This document shows positions 327 to 14,643 of a stretch of DNA of 64,000 nt, in pieces. Made by a program: the position numbers and the translations under genes. This DNA comes from Convivina intestini (GTDB lineage Bacteria > Bacillota > Bacilli > Lactobacillales > Lactobacillaceae). Positions within the stretch are counted from its first letter, which is position 1; each line of letters opens with the position of its first letter. The stretch is from the NCBI RefSeq assembly GCF_003096575.1, contig NZ_QEKT01000002.1:62001-126000 (forward strand), in the 5' to 3' direction. The notes beneath the pieces were generated by a model, which did not search any database, had not been told where the DNA came from, and saw only the letters and a list, made by a program, of their open reading frames with translations.

Positions 327-3300
327 TTAATGCTTGCGCTTACGACGAGCACTGATACCAAATACTGAAGCTGCCGTAAGGGCCAAAGCCCCGACAATAC
401 TGGTATTTTTTACAGCGTGTCGACTAGCTCTTGTAGCAGTGGCTGGCAAAGTGCCCGCTTGCTGAGAACCGTCGTTAGTGGAAAATAACGAACTAGAATT
501 ATAGTTTAATCCAGTAGCAGCCGTACTCATTGGCATTACAGTCCGATTGGAATTAGAACTAGGAATTAATTGTGAATCACTAGTGGAATCCGATGTAGCG
601 CCATTGTGAGAGCCACTTGTTGGTTGAGTAGCCGATGTTGAATCTGAACTAGATTTCGACGTAGACCCACTGGCCGACTTTGATTCTGAACTAGAAGTTG
701 AAGTAGAACCACTGATCGACTTAGAGTCTGAACTTGAGGTTGACGTGGACCCACTTGCTGATTTAGATTCTGAACTTGAAGTGGACTTAGAGTCACTGGC
801 CGACTTTGATTCTGAACTTGAAGTGGACGTAGAATCACTGGCTGATTTAGATTCTGAACTTGAAGTGGACGTAGAACCACTAGCTGACTTAGATTCTGAG
901 CTAGAAGTTGAAGTAGATTCACTTGACGACTTTGATTCTGAACTGGAAGTGGACTTAGAGTCACTACCTGATTTAGATTCTGAACTTGAAGTGGACGTGG
1001 ACTCACTTGCTGACTTTGATTCTGAACTTGAAGTGGACGTGGACTCACTTGCTGACTTTGATTCTGAACTAGATTTTGACGTAGAGCCACTGGCAGACTT
1101 AGAGTCTGAGCTAGAAGTTGAAGTTGATGCACTAGCTGCAGATTCAGAAGCAGAAATAGAACTCGAAGTCGACGTGCTGGCTGCCGATTCGGAACCAGAA
1201 ATAGAACTTGAAGTTGACGCACTAGCTGCTGATTCAGAACCAGAAATAGAACTCGAAGTTGACGCGCTGGCTGCCGATTCAGAACCAGAGATGGAATTCG
1301 AAGTCGACGCACTAGCTGCTGATTCAGAACCAGAGATGGAACTTGAAGTTGAAGCGCTGGCTGCCGATTCGGAACCAGAAATAGAACTCGAAGTTGATGC
1401 GCTGGTTGCCGATTCGGAACCAGAAATAGAACTCGAAGTTGATGCGCTGGCTGCTGATTCAGAACCAGAGATGGAACTTGAAGTTGACGCACTAGCTGCT
1501 GATTCAGAACCAGAAATAGAATTCGAAGTTGACGCACTAGCTGCCGATTCAGAACCAGAAATAGAACTCGAAGTTGATGCGCTGGCTGCCGATTCAGAGC
1601 CAGAAATAGAACTCGAAGTTGATGCGCTGGCTGCCGATTCAGAGCCAGAGATAGAAGATGATGTTGAAGTTGACTGACTGTTTTGATCGATATGATAAAC
1701 AACCGTAATATGCGTATCACCCGTTGTTGCAGTAGTCATTTCTGATGGAATATTGGTTTTATCAGCAATATAGCCATTAATCACCGGCGAAGTCACCGCC
1801 TCATAAATTGCTTGATTAGTCACCCAGGGCGTGTAAGCAACTGCCTTGTCAACATCAACCAAATCAAAAGTGCCATTACGACTATATTCAACACTTTGAT
1901 CAACAGTTGGCGCAGCTATCCGACCATCATCATAAACATAGTTAATTACCCGATGAATCTGTTTGACTAAGCTATGAATATCCGTTCCCTGTGGATATTT
2001 AGGCCCATTAGGATTACTAGGATCAACCGGCTGGCCCGGCGTACCAGGAGTTTGTGGTGTTACCGTCTTAGTGCCATGCTTAAATTCAACAACAAATGTT
2101 GGTGTATCAGCCCCAAAAACGTGTCCTTTTGGATATTCATCCTTTACTAAGACAAAGCCCCGCTTTCCAAAAGCGGCAATTCGATCAGCTGTGTTGTATT
2201 CAGCCGTTTCGTTGTATGCACCAGTCACTTGATCTGAAAGGACAACGACATTATGATCATCAATATCAATATAATTAACTGTCATATGCTCCTCGTTGCC
2301 TCGATACCCATATAGTAAATAGCCTTGGTTGGAATCATTAGCAGACTGACTATCATTAATACTAATGGGCATCATAAAATTAACACCGTTACTACCGGTT
2401 GTGCTAACCAAATGGTAATTAGCAAATGCCTTGGCCGATGCGTTTAACGGTTGACCAGTTTTACCCACTTTTAATTCTGCAGGAGCCAAATCAGCAATGT
2501 CATTTCCATCGGCATCGACTGCTACGTAATAGACCCTTGTATAGGCAGTATTGTCATATAGGTACACTAAGGTTTGTTTATAATTAGTAACAATGGCATT
2601 TACATCAACTACCGAATCAAAGCGGGAAATTGCTTGATAATCATACGGTTCCTGATCGGATTCATTGCCATAGCGCACCACCATTGCCGTACGGTAATAA
2701 CCTAATTTGGATAAGTCTTTTTGGTTAATCGTCACTTTATCCTGTAATTTATCGTCATAACCTTGTACTGAGGGAGTAACAATTTGCTGGCCAGTATTCT
2801 CATCAACGTAGTAGGTTTTAACAAGTTGAGGATAAGTCGTCCCAAAATGAGCGACCCCGTCCAAATCTAGTTCAGTTCGATGATTAATCTTGTCACTTAC
2901 ATCAAAATCAACTAGATATTTAACTGGTTCAGTATTAGCATTCAAGCCCTGATTCGCATCAGCATCATCACCGATACCACCTTGAAAAGTTGAAGGTTGC
3001 AAATTATCATGCAATGGTACTAAGAAACCGGTTGCCTGGGTAAAGTTATCAACTGATTTACCCGTCCGGTCAATTAAATAAACTGTCTTGGGATGATAAA
3101 CCTTACCGTTAGGATAGGTAACGGTCACATTGGATAAATCAGCCGTACTAGTAAAACCTAAATCAGACAAGTGAATTTTGTCTAAATTAATTGTTTGAAT
3201 ACCAAAACCATACAGATTTTCAACTGCCTGAGTATCACCAGCGGTGTATTTACCTGGGGTTATATTGAGTTGATAGTGATTCCCACTGGTGACAGTATTA

Positions 3301-3974
3301 ATCGTCGGATGGGCGTAACCGCCATCCTTTTGCCAATTATCGGTACTAATATCGGCAAGAATCTGATCAATACTGGGTGTTGCCGTGACGCCAGACTGAC
3401 CAGCTTGCTGGCTTGATTCAGCAGGAATAGCGGCTGCTACCTGCGGACTTTTCTGTTGGTCAACTAGACTTCCGGTCTGACTGGTCGTGGATGAATCAGC
3501 TGTTGATGCCACTGTCCGGTTTGTTGTAGATGAGTCGCTTGTTGATTCCACGGGCTGACTGGCCATCGATGAATCAGCTGTTGAGCCGACTGGCTCTTTT
3601 ACAGTCATGTCAGCTGGCAGGTCGGTGTTAATAGTGGCCGGTAATGATTGCGTGGAACTAGCAGTAGTATCAGCATCGCTAGTCGCAGCAGCAGTCAACT
3701 GGCTAACGTTAGTTGTACTCTTGGTATGAATTTGCTGGGTTGTTGACTGGCTATCTGGCTGTAAGAAAACTGCCTTCCCCATCAAGGCATTGCTACCAGG
3801 CTCCACAGCATTAGCATCGACTGTATCAGCCATCGCTTCGGTCTTGTCAACAAATAGACCTGCAGTGCCCAATACCGCAAAAGTTGACAATGACATCAAA
3901 GCCCAGTGCTTTTTTACCTTGTGCAAAATTTTTTTGTCATTAATCTTTTTATAATCATATTTGTTATATAACAT
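327..3974 (-). CDS. Serine-rich repeat, sortase-anchored surface adhesin (KxYKxGKxW-like signal)
   Basis: A cell-wall adhesin of about 1215 residues. I chose the ATG at 3974, with GGTGAGG 9 bases upstream, over the in-frame GTG at 3989, which lies inside that ribosome binding site. The N-terminus is a long basic leader ending HKVKKHW before a hydrophobic segment, a degenerate KxYKxGKxW signal; proteins with this signal are usually exported by SecA2/SecY2. Next come an S/T-rich linker (~85-205), a non-repetitive adhesin region (~205-385), MucBP/Mub-B2-like modules (~390-765) and two blocks of serine-rich repeats (~767-1115). The end is LPATA, a hydrophobic helix and RRKRKH. LPATA departs from LPxTG at position 5. 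Such proteins are usually O-glycosylated and bind host glycans or mucus; the ligand cannot be read here. No accessory Sec genes are in the window. Confidence 0.9.
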   Translation of the reverse strand: MLYNKYDYKKINDKKILHKVKKHWALMSLSTFAVLGTAGLFVDKTEAMADTVDANAVEPGSNALMGKAVFLQPDSQSTTQQIHTKSTTNVSQLTAAATSDADTTASSTQSLPATINTDLPADMTVKEPVGSTADSSMASQPVESTSDSSTTNRTVASTADSSTTSQTGSLVDQQKSPQVAAAIPAESSQQAGQSGVTATPSIDQILADISTDNWQKDGGYAHPTINTVTSGNHYQLNITPGKYTAGDTQAVENLYGFGIQTINLDKIHLSDLGFTSTADLSNVTVTYPNGKVYHPKTVYLIDRTGKSVDNFTQATGFLVPLHDNLQPSTFQGGIGDDADANQGLNANTEPVKYLVDFDVSDKINHRTELDLDGVAHFGTTYPQLVKTYYVDENTGQQIVTPSVQGYDDKLQDKVTINQKDLSKLGYYRTAMVVRYGNESDQEPYDYQAISRFDSVVDVNAIVTNYKQTLVYLYDNTAYTRVYYVAVDADGNDIADLAPAELKVGKTGQPLNASAKAFANYHLVSTTGSNGVNFMMPISINDSQSANDSNQGYLLYGYRGNEEHMTVNYIDIDDHNVVVLSDQVTGAYNETAEYNTADRIAAFGKRGFVLVKDEYPKGHVFGADTPTFVVEFKHGTKTVTPQTPGTPGQPVDPSNPNGPKYPQGTDIHSLVKQIHRVINYVYDDGRIAAPTVDQSVEYSRNGTFDLVDVDKAVAYTPWVTNQAIYEAVTSPVINGYIADKTNIPSEMTTATTGDTHITVVYHIDQNSQSTSTSSSISGSESAASASTSSSISGSESAASASTSSSISGSESAASASTSNSISGSESAASASTSSSISGSESAASASTSSSISGSESATSASTSSSISGSESAASASTSSSISGSESAASASTSNSISGSESAASASTSSSISGSESAASASTSSSISGSESAASTSTSSSISASESAASASTSTSSSDSKSASGSTSKSSSESKSASESTSTSSSESKSASESTSTSSSESKSGSDSKSTSSSESKSSSESTSTSSSESKSASGSTSTSSSESKSASDSTSTSSSESKSASDSKSTSSSESKSASGSTSTSSSDSKSISGSTSTSSSESKSASGSTSKSSSDSTSATQPTSGSHNGATSDSTSDSQLIPSSNSNRTVMPMSTAATGLNYNSSSLFSTNDGSQQAGTLPATATRASRHAVKNTSIVGALALTAASVFGISARRKRKH
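616..1119 (-). repeat. Tandem 42-bp repeats encoding a 14-residue Ser-rich unit (about 12 copies)
   Basis: About 12 copies of a unit reading STSTSSSESKSASE with K/T, D/E and G/A/S substitutions. They form the wall-proximal stalk of the adhesin. Copies differ mostly at third positions and a few residues, as expected for repeats shuffled by recombination. The copy number is likely to vary between strains and is a possible assembly collapse point. Confidence 0.9.
1120..1665 (-). repeat. Tandem 45-bp repeats encoding a 15-residue Ser-rich unit (12 copies)
   Basis: Twelve copies of the unit STSSSISGSESAASA, with N for S in two copies and T for A in one. The period switches from 15 to 14 residues at about 1120, so the two blocks expanded separately. 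The opposite strand of this block is open and encodes an acidic artefact protein. Confidence 0.9.
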
Positions 3975-8617: not shown

Positions 8618-9463
8618 ATTAACTCTTTAAATAAGACACTATCTCATTATCTTGTGTTTCTCGGCGCCTTATTTTTAATTGCGATGAGCATCAATTTCTT
8701 CTTTTCGCCCCACAATATTGCAGCTGGAGGGGCGACTGGGCTAGCCATCTTAGCTCAGGAACTCTTTGGCTGGCCGCTTTTTTTAACAACTTTAGGGGTT
8801 AACATCATTATGTTAATCTTGGCGGCTATTTTTCTAGCACGAGAAACGGTCCTGCGGATTCTCTTTGGTAGCTTCATGCTGCCCGTCATGCTGGCCATTA
8901 TTCCCCAAACAAAAGTTGTCAACGACACTTTATTTGCAGTCATTGTCGGCAGTGCTATCTTTGCTGCTGGAATCGCCTTGCTTTACAATATTGATGCTTC
9001 CAGTGGTGGTACTACCGTTCCCCCATTAATTTTCAAAAAATACTTCAATTTAAAGGCCCCGGTCGGTTTACTGATTATTGATATCTGCGTGTCTTTTGGA
9101 AATATTTTCACAGCTGGTCTTGAAGCCTTTGTCTACGCGGTTTTTTCGATTGTGATTACTAGTTTAATTATGAATTACATTGAAAGTGGCTTTAACCGTA
9201 AAAAGACCCTCTTCATTAGTAGCAATATCAGCACTACTGAGTTAAAAGATGCCCTGGGTCATGATTTATCCTATGGTCTAACCGTCATCCCCTCTCGTGG
9301 CGGCTTTCAGGATTCTGAGCAAGAACTTTTAATGATTGTCGTAGATACTCAGGAATATCCCCGCTTTGTCCGTAAAGTCTTAGCGGCTGACCCCGATGTT
9401 TTCATTACAGTCTCCGATACAGCTAGTGTGCACGGCGGTTTCTTCAATCGTCAGCAAATTTAA
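8618..9463 (+). CDS. YitT family membrane protein with DUF2179 domain, probable ATT start
   Basis: An integral membrane protein of the YitT family: about five helices, an IAAGGATGLA motif after the first helix, and a soluble C-terminal DUF2179 domain (~175-280). The only standard start in this frame downstream of the TAA at 8576 is GTG at 8654; it has no ribosome binding site and would cut into the first helix. In contrast ATT at 8618 sits six bases after a perfect GGAGG (8607-8611) and gives the N-terminus MNSLNKTLSHYLVFLG, the usual length for the family. I therefore start at 8618. Function of YitT proteins is not established. A second family member is at 13648-14643. Confidence 0.8.
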   Translation: MNSLNKTLSHYLVFLGALFLIAMSINFFFSPHNIAAGGATGLAILAQELFGWPLFLTTLGVNIIMLILAAIFLARETVLRILFGSFMLPVMLAIIPQTKVVNDTLFAVIVGSAIFAAGIALLYNIDASSGGTTVPPLIFKKYFNLKAPVGLLIIDICVSFGNIFTAGLEAFVYAVFSIVITSLIMNYIESGFNRKKTLFISSNISTTELKDALGHDLSYGLTVIPSRGGFQDSEQELLMIVVDTQEYPRFVRKVLAADPDVFITVSDTASVHGGFFNRQQI

Positions 9464-9509: not shown

Positions 9510-11057
9510 CTATTCCCACTCAACTGTTGCTGGTGGCTTAGCCGTAATGTCATAGACAATCCGGTTAACATGATCAACTTCATTGACAATTCGAGAAGAA
9601 ATCTTTTGCAAGAGTTCCCATGGCAAACGAGCAAAGTCGGCCGTCATGCCATCAACTGAGGTAATTGCGCGAATGGCAACCGTGTGATCATAGGTCCGGT
9701 AATCACCCATGACACCCACCGAACGCACGTTAGTTAGGATAGTGAAGTACTGCCAGACATCCCCTTCCAAACCAGCTTTAGCGATTTCGTCTCGCAAAAT
9801 CCAATCGGAATCACGAACAATCTTGAGCTTATCTTCGGTAATGTCACCCATGATTCGGATACCCAAACCAGGACCTGGGAAAGGCTGACGCCAAACCATT
9901 TCATGTGGCATCCCCAACTTTTCACCGAGTTCACGGACTTCATCTTTGAAAAGTGTATTCAGCGGTTCAATCAATTGGAACTGCATGTCTTCTGGCAGAC
10001 CACCCACATTGTGATGGGACTTAATTGTTTGGGCTGTATCCGTTCCGGACTCAATGACATCAGTATACAAAGTTCCTTGCGCTAAGAAATCAATGCCATT
10101 AAGCTTCGTCGCTTCGTCGTTGAAGACCTGGATAAATTCATTACCAATAATCTTACGTTTTTGCTCTGGATCAGTCACCCCGGCTAACTTGCCAAGGAAA
10201 CGTTCTTGCGCATCAACCTTGACAATATTTAGGCCAAACTTACCACCCAGCATTTCCATGACTTGTTGAGCTTCGTTTTTACGAAGCAAACCATGATCAA
10301 CAAAAATCGAAGTCAACTGATCACCAATGGCGCGGTGCAACAAAACACCGACCACGGAAGAGTCAACCCCACCAGACAAGCCCAATAAGACCTTGCGGTC
10401 GCCGACTTGGGCACGGATTTTAGCGATTTGTTCATCAATAAAGCCATCCATGGTCCAGTTAGCCTGAGCCCCAGCAATATTAATCACAAAATTCTTTAAA
10501 ATTTGCTTACCATATTCAGACAAAGTTGTCTCAGAGTGGAACTGGACCCCGTACAAACGGTCAGCATCGTTAGCAATGGCGGCAATTGGTGTCTTTTGTG
10601 AACCAGCAGCTACCACAAAATTATCGGGTAACTTAGTTACATTATCAGAATGGCTCATCAAGACGATTTGCTGCTGTGGTGTATCGGCAAACAAAGCGCT
10701 ACTATTTTCACTTTGAGTAATTTCAGTTTGACCAAATTCACCGTTACCAGGATTGGCTTCAACTTTTCCACCCAAATCCTGGGCCATTAACTGCATTCCA
10801 TAGCAGACACCCAAAACTGGAATACCCAACTTAAAAATTTCAGGATTAATGGTGAAGGCATCCTCATCATAAACCGACTTAGGTCCGCCTGATAAAATAA
10901 TGGCCTTAGGTTGATAGGCCTTGATTTCATCCAAAGTCATTTTACTGGACTTTAATTCAGAAAAAACACCCATTTCACGAATTCGGCGGGTAATTAACTG
11001 GTTATATTGACTACCATAGTCAAGTACTAAAACCTTATCAAGTGTCTCTTGAACCAT
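9510..11057 (-). CDS. guaA: GMP synthase (glutamine-hydrolysing)
   Basis: Converts XMP to GMP using glutamine and ATP, the last step of guanine nucleotide synthesis. It is full length at 515 residues. The class I amidotransferase domain has Cys85 in GVCYGMQ, with His174 and Glu176 in QFHSE. The ATP-pyrophosphatase loop SGGVDSS is at 228-234. The C-terminal dimerisation domain ends in KPPATVEWE, as in other GuaA proteins. The ATG follows the stop of the upstream IMPDH-like gene by two bases, so translation is likely coupled. It is the last gene of the operon behind the guanine riboswitch at 13227-13360. Confidence 0.98.
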
Positions 11058-11059
11058 GT

Positions 11060-12010
11060 TTACTCACTTTCTTCTTTTAAATAGTTAGGGGCTTGCTTGG
11101 TGATTTCAACATCGTGGGGATGGGATTCACGCAAACCATTATCAGTAATTTGAACAAACTGAGCGGCCTGCTTTAGGGCTGGTACATCCTTGGAACCAGT
11201 GTAACCCATGCCGGCCCGCAAACCACCATCAATTTGGAAGATGGCATCAGCTGGGGCTTCATCACCAGCCAAATAGTCAGTAATTAACACGGCATCAGCA
11301 CCAGCAGCTAAGGCTTTGACAACATCACCGGAGTAATGCACGCCACTACCAGCCACCACAGCCTTATCCAAGTCAGCAGCTACTTCAGCAATGCCCATTG
11401 TAACGGTTAAGAAAGGATAATGACTGTTGTTAGGCAACTGAGAATCAACCGAACGACCGACAATTACGCCGTCCATACCAGCTTCATATAGCTGACGGGC
11501 CGCTTTAGGGTCTTCAATGACACCTACCAGCCACAAAAGCTCTGGTGCTTGGGCATGTAAGGACTTTATTTCAGTCAACATTTCAGTCGTTAGGGCTTGA
11601 TGTAGATACAAAACTACAGCATCTACTCCCACAGCAACTAGCGCTTGTAACCGTTGACTAGCATCACTGGCCAACCACAATTCTGCCGCTACTTGTAATT
11701 TACCGTCCAAACCGACCAAGGCCTCGTCAGCTTGGTCAGCAGCAACGGCATATTCCTTAACAGTTTGAAGGGCAGTCACCTGCTGGTTTACATCATCGGT
11801 AGCGGTAATTACACTCAAACCACCGGCCAAAGCCATTGGTAATACGTAATCATCAACGCCAGCTGCTTGGCCATTTGCCATCAAAGGTGTTTTTAATCCA
11901 AACTGATTTAGTTTAGTAGCCAATGAAACCGTATGGGGCAAAACATTGGAAGCGGCTGGTACCAAAAGGACTTCATCATAGCCCAATCCTGGCTGATTTT
12001 CCTGTGTCAT
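11060..12010 (-). CDS. IMPDH-like pseudoenzyme lacking catalytic residues
   Basis: A 316-residue paralogue of IMP dehydrogenase between guaB and guaA. It opens with [18 protein letters not shown], the family N-terminus, and closes with [13 protein letters not shown] and ESHPHD (295-300), the canonical C-terminus. Between them the active-site parts are gone: the SAxMDTVTE segment is [10 protein letters not shown], the DSAHGHS strand is YLHQALT, the GxGSxCTTR cysteine loop reads VGRSVDSQL (184-192), the phosphate-binding DGG is GSG, and the flap with its Arg-Tyr pair is missing. It cannot be a working dehydrogenase. It has a good AGGAGA site and no disabling stops, so it is kept as a protein. 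Its tail is what the neighbouring guaB product lacks, which suggests a partner subunit. Confidence 0.85.
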
Positions 12011-12061: not shown

Positions 12062-13171
12062 TTACAGACTAGCCTGATAGTCATGTTCCGTGGTTGTTCG
12101 CTTAATGTCATTATCTTGACGAACTTCAGCTAAGTTCTGAGTGCCCATGGCCGCCATGCTTTGACGAACATGATCAACAATTGGCGTCAAAATTTCAGCC
12201 AGCGTCCCCTTATAATTCACGCGGGCTTCGATTCCTTCGGGCACCATCTTTTTGGCCTCATTAACTTCGCCTTGGAAATAACGATCCTTGGAACCATTTT
12301 CCATAGCAGCAATTGAGCCCATGCCACGATAGAACTTATATTGCTGATTTCCATCGGTAAAGACTTCGCCGGGTGTTTCCGCCGTACCAGAAAACATTGA
12401 GCCCAACATAACGGCATTACCGCCCATTGCCATTGCCTTCATAACGTCATCAGCAGTCTTAGCACCACCATCAGCAATAATCGCCTTCCCGCGCTTTTTA
12501 GCTTCTTTAGCGGCATCACGAATGGCCGATAATTGAGGTACCCCAATACCAGCCACAATACGGGTCGTGCAGATTGAACCAGGTCCAATACCGACCTTGA
12601 CTACATCAGCCCCCGCATCATACAAAGCAGCAGCACCGGCTTGAGTGGCAATGTTACCAGCAATAATATTTAACTCCGGAAAGGCCTGACGAACTTCTTG
12701 AACCTTTCGTAAGACCCCCTCTGAATGACCATGGGCAGAGTCTAAAACAATCGCATCAGCACCAGCTTCAGCCATGGCTGCCACCCGTTTAACCGTGTCG
12801 TTGGTTACACCAACTGCTCCAGCAACTAGTAAATGTCCCTGCGCATCAACAGCTGCTTGAGGATAAGTATTAGCATCAAAATTAGCCTGTTTCACCTGAC
12901 GGATTTGGTCAGCTTGTTGATCAATGGTCATATTCTTATGAATTACACCCAAACCACCAAATTGCGCCAAAGCCTGGGCAAAAGGCGCTTCAGTAACAGT
13001 GTCCATCGCCGCTGATAAAAGCGGAATGTTTAATTTCAAGGTTGGCGTCAAACTAGTTGTAATATCAACTGTCTGGGGATCAATCGCCCCGCTTGGCTGG
13101 GGTACAATCGCCATATCCTCAAAGGTCAAACCCATTGGAATAAACTTATTTTTGATGCGAAACGTTGCCAT
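12062..13171 (-). CDS. guaB: IMP dehydrogenase, CBS-less and with altered C-terminus
   Basis: Oxidises IMP to XMP with NAD+, the rate-limiting step towards GMP. At 369 residues it lacks the ~110-residue CBS pair normally inserted after [10 protein letters not shown] (72-81). Catalytic parts are intact: MDTVTE (56-61), DSAHGHS (144-150), [11 protein letters not shown] with Cys201, DGG (234-236), MGSIAAM and the flap Arg317/Tyr320 in ARVNYKG. The C-terminus is abnormal: after residue 335 the usual GMGYxG segment and ESHPHDV tail are replaced by a divergent stretch ending HDYQASL. That tail contributes to the K+ site of the adjacent subunit in other IMPDHs. The ATG has GAGGAG upstream and the gene is first behind the guanine riboswitch. 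Confidence 0.92.
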
Positions 13172-13226
13172 AAATTCTCCTCTTCTGATGGACTATCTTA
13201 GTAACTAGCAACAGACGCTATCAAAC

Positions 13227-13267
13227 AAAAAAAGCACTCGTAGGAACACAGATCCGACAAATGCTTT
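13227..13267 (-). terminator. Riboswitch-controlled terminator before guaB
   Basis: On the minus strand AAAGCATTTGTCGGA pairs with the downstream arm ending GTGCTTT, with one mismatch and wobbles, followed by seven T. The 5' arm GCATTT..CGG can also pair with CCG.AAATGC at the 3' edge of the purine aptamer, giving an antiterminator. Binding of ligand would favour termination. Confidence 0.85.
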
Positions 13268-13360
13268 CACCAAAAAAACGATTTACAGCATTTACGGATA
13301 GTCACGGCTTTTGGTGCGTGGTAGAGACTGCTGGCCATTTCCCAGCGATATATCTGCAAA
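13268..13360 (-). promoter_or_regulatory. Guanine (purine) riboswitch controlling the gua operon
   Basis: The minus-strand leader has the purine aptamer core at 13291-13360. P1 is GATA/TATC extended by TTTGC/GTAAA across one mismatch, and P2 is GCTGG/CCAGC. L2 is GAAATGG, whose GG can kiss the CC of L3. J2/3 is GTCTCTACC (13320-13328), P3 is CACG/CGTG, and J3/1 is GACTAT. The specificity base in GACTAT is C (complement of 13301), which pairs with guanine; adenine aptamers have U there. The terminator at 13227-13267 and a CCG/CGG plus AAATGC/GCATTT antiterminator explain an OFF switch on guanine. It precedes guaB, the pseudoenzyme gene and guaA. Confidence 0.9.
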
Positions 13361-13400
13361 TAATAATTAAGTTATTGGTAATACTTTACCGACTTTTATT

Positions 13401-13458
13401 AAAAAAATCAAGTTGCAGTAATCGATTAAACAAACTCGATTACTGCAACTTGATTTTT
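13401..13458. terminator. Long-stem terminator after the tautomerase gene
   Basis: A near-perfect 22-bp stem (arms at 13403-13425 and 13436-13457) with T runs on both sides, just past the tautomerase stop codon. It insulates the gua promoter from the upstream unit. Confidence 0.9.
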
Positions 13459-13462
13459 AAGA

Positions 13463-13648
13463 TTAACGGTCGCTGGCTAGGACACCACCAACCGCATAGT
13501 GATCCTTGGGCATTTCCCGTAGAATAATGTGAACTGCCTCACGCTGGGCACCGGTATTTTTAACAATTGCCGCCGTGACATCCTCGACCATCTTGGCTAA
13601 TTGTTCCTTGCTACGACCCTCTAATAATTCAACTTGTACAACTGGCAT
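13463..13648 (-). CDS. 4-oxalocrotonate tautomerase family protein
   Basis: A 61-residue tautomerase. The residue after the initiator Met is Pro (MPVVQVELLEGRSKEQ), which becomes the catalytic N-terminal Pro-1 after processing. The arginine in LEGRS fits the conserved substrate-binding Arg-11. Family members form hexamers and act on enol/keto acids, but in lactic acid bacteria the natural substrate is unknown. The ATG shares its A with the TAA of the upstream yitT gene (TAATG), with GGAG ahead of it, so the two are translationally coupled. A strong terminator follows. Confidence 0.9.
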   Translation of the reverse strand: MPVVQVELLEGRSKEQLAKMVEDVTAAIVKNTGAQREAVHIILREMPKDHYAVGGVLASDR

Positions 13649-14643
13649 TATTTTTCTCCTTTTTCAATTCGTTCGTTTTCTAACTGTTGCAATTGCTCTT
13701 CTAAACTCTTTTCAGCTTGCAGCTGCGCATCAATGGTTGTTGGTTTAGGCGACAATGATTTACGCATTTGCAACTGGCGATCAGCGTCTAAGAACTCCCC
13801 GGCCACGTTTACTGTACTCAAGAAAGTAATGAAGGCCTTCGGATCAACCTGACGGACTGCCTCTTGCATTTCAAACAATTCATATCGTGATAACACCATC
13901 ATTAAAGTGGTCGAATCACGTTTAGTGTAAGCTCCCTGAGAAGGCAAGATGGTAATCCCACGAATCAGATCGCGGTGTAAGACGTCCACCACCTCACTCC
14001 CCTTACTGGTCACAATCAGGGCAGTTAGCTTCTGATAACCAGTATACATGGTATCAACCACCCGTCCAGTGGCATAAATACCAATCAAGGTGTACAACGC
14101 ATTTTGCCAACCAATGAAAGAACCCGCAATCAAGACAATCACAAAGTTAACGGCATTCATGAAGACGCCAATTGATTTACCAGTTCGCTTTTGAATAACC
14201 ATGGCGATAATATCCAAACCGCCAGTAGAAAATCCGTAACGCAGAGCCACCCCCACGGAAGCTCCAACTAGTAAGCCCCCAAATAATGAAGCTAGTAGCG
14301 GCTGCGTGGTAAAGGGCTGAGCTGGTACAAAAATCATAGCCAATGATACCGTCACCGAGTTTAGGAAACTTAAAATGGTAAACTTCCCACCAATTAACTT
14401 CCAACCAATAACACCAATCGGAATGTTAAATAGTAACAGGAACAAACCCGTATCAATGTGTAAGTGGAAGAAAGTACGGGCAAAAATAGACATCAACTGG
14501 GAAACCCCGTTAATTCCAACTGAGAAAATATCATTTGGGATTAAAAAGTAGTTCAATCCAATAACTTGCAAAATAACACTTATCACAAAAAAGAAAATTG
14601 TCAGCGCAATCTTACGCCAACTCGTTTTAATTAGATCCACCAA
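13648..14643 (-). CDS. YitT family membrane protein (second copy), TTG start
   Basis: A 331-residue YitT family protein with about five membrane helices: LNYFLIPNDIFSVGINGVSQL after helix one and GFSTGGLDIIA in the core. A soluble DUF2179 domain follows (~210-290), and then a charged, Gln/Glu-rich C-terminal extension of ~40 residues. The start is TTG at 14643 with AGG 8 bases upstream; a GTG follows immediately as an alternative. It overlaps the downstream tautomerase gene by one base. Function of the family is not established; the coupling with a tautomerase is the only context clue. Confidence 0.85.
   Translation of the reverse strand: MVDLIKTSWRKIALTIFFFVISVILQVIGLNYFLIPNDIFSVGINGVSQLMSIFARTFFHLHIDTGLFLLLFNIPIGVIGWKLIGGKFTILSFLNSVTVSLAMIFVPAQPFTTQPLLASLFGGLLVGASVGVALRYGFSTGGLDIIAMVIQKRTGKSIGVFMNAVNFVIVLIAGSFIGWQNALYTLIGIYATGRVVDTMYTGYQKLTALIVTSKGSEVVDVLHRDLIRGITILPSQGAYTKRDSTTLMMVLSRYELFEMQEAVRQVDPKAFITFLSTVNVAGEFLDADRQLQMRKSLSPKPTTIDAQLQAEKSLEEQLQQLENERIEKGEK

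Follow-up and report, generated by a model that had tools for sequence, protein, structure and literature searches.

A single guanine riboswitch controls the xpt-pbuX-guaB-guaA genes of S. aureus (PMC2858708; this paper and the three cited next are used from parts of their text). Guanine-I aptamers contact their ligand through U22, U51 and C74 (PMC9295807). As to the enzymes concerned, three carbonyls from the cysteine loop bind the K+ of M. tuberculosis IMP dehydrogenase (IMPDH) together with three from the Glu-Ser-His at the C-terminus of the neighboring subunit (PMC4594927), and the trypanosomatid deoxyhypusine synthase was shown by assay to be a heterotetramer of an impaired subunit and a dead paralogue (PMC3663545).

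In this study, a purine riboswitch and its operon were analyzed in a stretch of 64,000 bases of Convivina intestini (the window). Similar to S. aureus, one guanine riboswitch stands over guaB and guaA, the IMP-to-GMP branch; however, xpt and pbuX lead the S. aureus operon, whereas here guaB comes first, xpt and pbuX are absent from the operon, and guaB and guaA are separated by a pseudo-IMPDH gene (hereafter the partner), unlike in the operon given in the cited part of PMC2858708. The riboswitch is very probably a guanine-I type transcriptional OFF switch for the conversion of IMP to XMP by GuaB and of XMP to GMP by GuaA. Computation shows the aptamer, the competing pairings, the terminator, the gene order and their conservation.

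RF00167 matches were found in 75 of 121 Lactobacillaceae genomes. The next gene after 98 matches (97 over the cut-off and one below; class names other than guaB are a reading of clusters) was an NCS2-type permease in 41 cases, an xpt-like phosphoribosyltransferase in 25 and guaB in 22, and the others were followed by a second permease type (4), an adenine-deaminase-like gene (3), singletons (2) or no gene found (1). The window genome has a second purine riboswitch as well, located ahead of a permease-type gene (L094 2886-2983; G000:C7:42885-42982). An earlier note on this DNA, made from the sequence alone, had taken the gene context as unusual. Given the guaB-guaA precedent in the cited part of PMC2858708 and the 22 of 98 matches preceding guaB, the switch is of an already known type in a mildly unusual place, and that claim holds only in part.

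Querying named genomes with the partner gene in a protein-profile search returned 43 loci. The 27 with a near-full query match and at least 50% identity (L110-L136) were kept, representing Leuconostoc, Fructobacillus, one Convivina and two unclassified Lactobacillaceae, while 16 loci with 30–33% over most of the length, or with a short C-terminal match, were left out of the counts. The window and these 27 named relatives make up the 28 leaders and aptamers referred to below, which include 27 distinct aptamer sequences. Each named relative has one RF00167 match, which scores 45–55 bits and starts 1.3–1.5 kb ahead of the partner gene. Consistent with the earlier reading of the window, the order riboswitch-guaB-partner-guaA recurs in 27/27 named relatives, with guaB and the partner fused in one frame in seven. 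The partner gene is 95% identical in G001, the only further Convivina genome searched; among named records, a 95% identical gene is that of Convivina praedatoris.

The aptamer and its ligand class

In a cmscan of all 64,000 bases, RF00167 (Purine) was the sole family above its gathering threshold in the window. The match at 13375-13279 on the minus strand scored 49 bits against a gathering score of 37 (E 3.2e-5), with an alignment spanning the full model (positions 1-102 of 102), so the guanine riboswitch suggested earlier passed the covariance-model check. Its proposed interval of 13227-13360 covers the aptamer core, linker, terminator and U-run, but leaves the first 15 nt of the match uncovered. 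When an E-value threshold was used instead, the only second RNA family in the leader was RF02638, at the chance level (15.9 bits vs. a gathering score of 219, E 0.96).

The aptamer (13279-13375, minus strand) contains the P1/P2/P3 three-way junction, with P1 formed by 13361-13351 and a 3′ strand at 13300-13290; kissing loops with GG at 13336-13335 and CC at 13314-13313; the J2/3 sequence GUCUCUACC; and a J3/1 with C at 13301 (minus strand). In the Rfam alignment this C is the specificity base of the guanine rather than the adenine type, is invariant in the 28-row alignment, and is presumably the equivalent of C74 in xpt numbering. Junction, kissing loops and specificity C, all named in the earlier note, are thus seen in the Rfam alignment. 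Together with the J2/3 and J3/1 cores and the terminator platform, they are shared with guanine-I aptamers of the xpt type.

The window aptamer differs from the xpt type in several places. Its P3 comprises four standard pairs and a mismatch closed by a 6 nt loop (CCAAAA), while the Rfam consensus has 7 bp and a 7 nt loop, in line with the short P3 and altered loop noticed before. P1 carries an A-C mismatch, U replaces A in J1/2, and C replaces U at position 48 of J2/3, three departures absent from the earlier note. The P1 A-C mismatch and the mismatched fifth layer of P3 occur in every one of the 28 aptamer rows; the sixth P3 layer is paired in 19 of the 28, the window not being among them. 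Such a tolerated P1 mismatch and minimal P3 could be useful for testing how little scaffold suffices.

The departures at position 48, in J1/2, in P3 and in P1 could also point to a rare variant of the guanine scaffold recognizing 2′-deoxyguanosine, xanthine, 8-oxoguanine or adenine, and C occupies position 48 in 16 of the 28 guaB leaders, including the window (U in the other 12). We regard such a variant as highly improbable. Across the family, position 48 is variable (U in 63, C in 22, A in 8 and G in 1, among the 94 of 98 matches in which the J2/3 pattern was recognized), so a C there is no sign of a new ligand, and the contact bases U22, U51 and C74 are retained in the window aptamer without junction insertions. 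Neither the J2/3 insertion nor the U51G change reported for xanthine-II (the contacts and both changes as given in the part of PMC9295807 used) is present, and the target genes are purine genes, as is typical for guanine switches. A text search of PMC9295807 found no mention of position 48, guaB or guaA. Variant ligand classes were therefore set aside, on the family-wide variation at position 48 and the kept contact bases, and the aptamer would be predicted to prefer guanine.

Conservation was then assayed in the alignment of the 28 aptamers. The pocket bases T26, T49, T53 and C75 (numbering of the first sequence) are invariant, and the cells of the kissing pairs are 100% paired. Over 24 named pairs, 88.3% of the cells were standard-paired, vs. 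26–40% when the partner strand was slid by 1–3 positions. Cells changed on both sides numbered 15 compared with 5.9 in shuffles, while further pair types were at the chance level (12 vs. 12.3). Folding stability by itself was weak: the aptamer alone was not unusually stable (z −0.71; 47 of 200 shuffles equally good), and the leader was so only slightly (z −1.38; 16 of 200 as good). In addition, a simple consensus terminator scan returned three sites, all on the plus strand and not including the riboswitch terminator. It is the covariance model and the conservation that carry the case. A well-conserved guanine riboswitch is added for the Leuconostoc-Fructobacillus-Convivina group.

Terminator, antiterminator and promoter candidates

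The intrinsic terminator (13227-13267, minus strand) consists of a hairpin at 13267-13231 and seven U at 13233-13227, with a stability of −15.5 kcal/mol, in agreement with the terminator pointed out in the earlier note. Its 5′ arm contains the antiterminator partner strand (13252-13265, minus strand), which can form 13 bp with 13299-13287, bases that double as the P1 3′ strand (13290-13300, minus strand). This duplex has a one-base bulge and −15.9 kcal/mol, and 0/200 base shuffles of the terminator arm reached the same stability. The antiterminator first described by its CCG/CGG and AAATGC/GCATTT pairings is accordingly present, and longer than claimed. The C of the P1 A-C mismatch pairs with a G in the window antiterminator, which may be why it is retained.

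Both elements are kept although the sequences differ among genera. In 28/28 leaders, a finder that seeks a hairpin ahead of a U-run, itself without a background control, located a terminator hairpin (−11.5 to −25.8 kcal/mol) with 4–7 U behind it. An antiterminator helix of 11–15 bp, in some cases with a bulge or an internal loop, was likewise found in all 28, and the two helices are mutually exclusive via the P1 3′ strand. The antiterminator duplex was more stable than all 200 shuffles in 21 leaders, while in the other seven 1–18 of 200 shuffles were as stable, the worst being L115 (18/200).

Folding was then computed for leaders of different lengths. In those ending after the terminator 5′ arm, the P1 probability without ligand was 0.00 in 28/28 and the antiterminator dominated in 25, the exceptions being L114, L127 and L133. 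With the ligand modelled as an assumed bonus of −8 kcal/mol, P1 exceeded 0.5 at this stage in only four leaders, the window included (0.75). In full leaders, the terminator exceeded 0.5 in 25/28 with the bonus, supporting the exchange of helices in these, vs. 13/28 without, and stayed below 0.5 even with it in L113, L116 and L123. Even ligand-free, the terminator prevails in the full window leader (0.98) and in 12 further ones, where switching would then have to depend on kinetics, as it does in other transcriptional riboswitches.

A promoter-like pair lies at 13383-13411 on the minus strand (TTGATT at 13411-13406, 17 nt spacing, TAAAGT at 13388-13383); it agrees with the consensus at 8 of 12 bases, one fewer than the 9 demanded by the consensus scan. 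A TTG-N3 hexamer with a 16–17 nt spacing, 25–28 nt ahead of the aptamer core, was the top-scoring pair in 21 of the 28 leaders in a comparison without background control, and the transcript start is expected near 13376. Another promoter-like site (TTGATA, 18 nt, TAAGAT, 9/12; 13195-13224, minus strand) is located between the terminator and guaB and could bypass the riboswitch; by chance alone, the 701 bases scanned should contain about 1.7 such 9-of-12 sites. Between a tautomerase gene (13466-13648) and the riboswitch, a perfect 23 nt inverted repeat (13403-13458) is likely the terminator of that upstream gene and would insulate the operon; one of its arms overlaps the proposed −35 hexamer. 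Two genes of YitT-family membrane proteins with DUF2179 flank the operon, at 8654-9463 (plus strand) and 13648-14643 (minus strand).

The following mechanism is proposed. RNA polymerase would initiate just upstream and then transcribe the aptamer. When guanine is scarce, the terminator 5′ arm would capture the P1 3′ strand in the 13 bp antiterminator, resulting in read-through, so that guaB, the IMPDH-like partner and guaA would be expressed and IMP be converted to GMP. When guanine is sufficient, the ligand would pair with the C74 equivalent and hold P1 together with the three-way junction, leaving the terminator 5′ arm free to fold into the hairpin, so that transcription would end ahead of guaB. 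The second gene would encode a non-catalytic IMPDH subunit, produced in step with GuaB by the one switch. The ligand identity, the direction and size of the effect, and cotranscription of the genes are what we infer here from the sequence.

A decayed riboswitch, which still scores but no longer switches and leaves the operon constitutive or internally promoted, would account for a score of 49 bits that is low for the family (maximum 79.9 bits), for the mismatches in P1 and P3, for the promoter-like site at 13224-13195, and for a full window leader that favors the terminator with or without the ligand bonus. However, scores of 45–55 bits and both mismatches are common to the clade (27/27), the pocket bases are invariant, and the antiterminator helix and terminator are kept despite the divergence between genera, hence only a very slight chance is given to decay, and a working OFF switch is preferred.

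Additionally, 13 Leuconostoc leaders (L112-L114, L116-L118, L120-L124, L131 and L135) share an extra stretch, GGCGGATC, between the terminator and guaB. It lies approximately 150–200 nt past the aptamer start, with a GTTAACA-like repeat next to it where the printout extends that far, was not seen in the Convivina leaders, and is possibly a second control element.

GuaB and its IMPDH-like partner

The first gene of the operon, guaB (12062-13171, minus strand), encodes an IMP dehydrogenase of 369 aa without CBS domains (PF00478, 437.3 bits); against TIGR01302 it scored 415.2 bits, under the cut-off of 481.5. The catalytic Cys and the flap are present, while the C-terminal ESHPHD segment is absent, and the alignment to 7oj2 stops short of that segment. 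The last gene, guaA (9510-11057, minus strand), encodes a glutamine-hydrolysing GMP synthase of 515 aa (NF000848, 802.6 bits, cut-off 400). In the window genome (98.9% complete) only three IMPDH-like matches were found, namely GuaB, the partner and a GMP reductase, so that the truncated GuaB is the sole IMPDH candidate found in it. In L121 (Leuconostoc inhae KCTC 3774, an unverified record), the guaB frame at 2898-3968 is 5′-shortened (356 aa) compared with neighboring species, and this gene copy or the assembly may be damaged.

The partner (11060-12010, minus strand; 316 aa) matches PF00478 with 169.8 bits and gives an IMPDH-fold AF2 model with a mean pLDDT of 78.8, for which each of the 50 best PDB hits listed is an IMPDH (probability 1.00). 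It has lost the catalytic-Cys loop and the flap but retains the C-terminal ESHPHD segment. The catalytic-cysteine motif is missing in alignments to 5upx and 7oj2, and relative to 5upx approximately 45 residues around the flap are missing, the alignment resuming at the C-terminal segment to ESHPHD. Because the catalytic Cys loop (GxGSICTTR) and the flap are absent from the window partner and from the partner part of 32/32 loci, it is classed as an IMPDH-fold pseudoenzyme rather than an IMPDH. The Asp of the canonical DGG motif, which has a role in ribose binding in IMPDH, is gone as well. Residues 288-316 of the model have a pLDDT below 50, which fits a tail that may become ordered only on a neighboring subunit. 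The model of a fused Fructobacillus protein, built from an alignment of 7 sequences only, reached a mean pLDDT of 56.5 and a pTM of 0.42, too low to place the tail of the partner.

The losses are reciprocal. The ESH segment is absent from the window GuaB and from 29 separate GuaBs, and in the three fused proteins of the 32-locus set it is the partner half that ends with this segment. Reciprocal loss was seen in 34/34 partner genomes read, of the 38 found; this sample consists of the 32 loci (29 split, 3 fused) and two more, and overlaps in species with the 27 named loci, where 20 are split and seven, all of Fructobacillus, fused (L127-L130, L133, L134 and L136). Conversely, all 26 GuaBs without a detected partner retain ESHPH with D, E or N as the next residue (E or N in three); these comparison GuaBs have the cysteine motif, 25 being from Lactobacillaceae and one from another family of the order. 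Since the K+ site of IMPDH is built by two subunits, each paralogue has lost one half of the site.

Purifying selection acts on the partner, a conserved paralogue of IMPDH. In seven hand-chosen pairs its dN/dS was 0.012–0.147, compared with 0.019–0.090 for GuaB in the same pairs, and its residues 285-310 are the most conserved (22 of these 26 positions do not vary among 19 sequences).

These losses suggest, somewhat in preference to other readings, that the riboswitch governs an IMPDH working as an alternating heterotetramer, in which GuaB would bring the Cys and the flap, the partner would bring the K+ clamp, and neither would be active alone. If so, each paralogue would have lost what the other kept because a tail on GuaB itself could reach nothing but a dead site, and a two-subunit IMPDH would be co-regulated by guanine. 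Alternatively, the second protein might moonlight as a regulator or be a duplicate in degeneration, with no part in catalysis and simply carried along by the operon; this view draws on the loss of the catalytic Cys loop, the flap and the DGG Asp and on tree path lengths exceeding those of GuaB. We consider this alternative rather unlikely, because the dN/dS values of the chosen pairs speak against degeneration, the most conserved part of the partner is the very C-terminal segment that GuaB has lost, and the partner is fused to GuaB in the seven Fructobacillus loci.

The two-subunit IMPDH proposed here would resemble deoxyhypusine synthase in being a duplicated metabolic enzyme with a dead paralogue needed for full activity, but that case was assayed, while this one concerns a bacterial IMPDH with a reciprocal loss of ion-site halves, as read from sequence (PMC3663545, cited part). 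No two-subunit IMPDH was among the literature matches listed (titles and starts of abstracts), and no paper combining IMP dehydrogenase, pseudoenzyme and Lactobacillus was found, in a search that mostly left subscription papers outside.

The known forms of IMPDH, an intensively studied drug target, are assemblies of identical subunits. The operon, as an apparent natural IMPDH heteromer, therefore outweighs the switch in importance. If the heteromer prediction is true, two inactive proteins would give an active mixture with the K+ site made in trans, and one guanine riboswitch would keep both subunits in step. The complementary loss after gene duplication is readable from sequence and has more than one occurrence.

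The rli38 family, a Listeria sRNA family, was found above threshold at or just after the guaA end in two Fructobacillus loci, L119 (6491-6654) and L126 (6491-6655).

Distribution and origins of the split

The partner gene was found in 38 of 397 genomes of the family, in 5 of 40 genera. In a 66-row tree, the GuaBs with a partner formed one clade (100/99), whose neighbors are four partner-less GuaBs (L012, L028, L099 and L100) that also have the riboswitch, suggesting that the pairing of the switch with guaB probably predates the split.

In a further genus, g19, two IMPDH parts share one frame of 687–698 aa (L090 and L091). The first part has the cysteine and flap motifs; the second has neither, keeps part of the flap-length stretch and ends with ESHPHD. 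The catalytic half of g19 is placed elsewhere in the tree than the other partner-GuaBs, and common descent of both catalytic lineages was rejected (AU p 0.00028, the groups having been named after the tree was seen). Given separate catalytic lineages, the tail was lost on the catalytic side at least two times, with a partner present each time. Fused one-chain forms occur in some genomes of both tail-loss lineages. The partner halves of the two lineages, however, group together (100/99.7), which may reflect a single origin or long-branch attraction.

A riboswitch ahead of the fused gene was found in one of three g19 genomes (G152, for which the sequence used covered only the first 602 aa of the frame), and none in L090 and L091. 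In the split genomes of g18 (L092 and L093), the riboswitch lies ahead of guaB in both.
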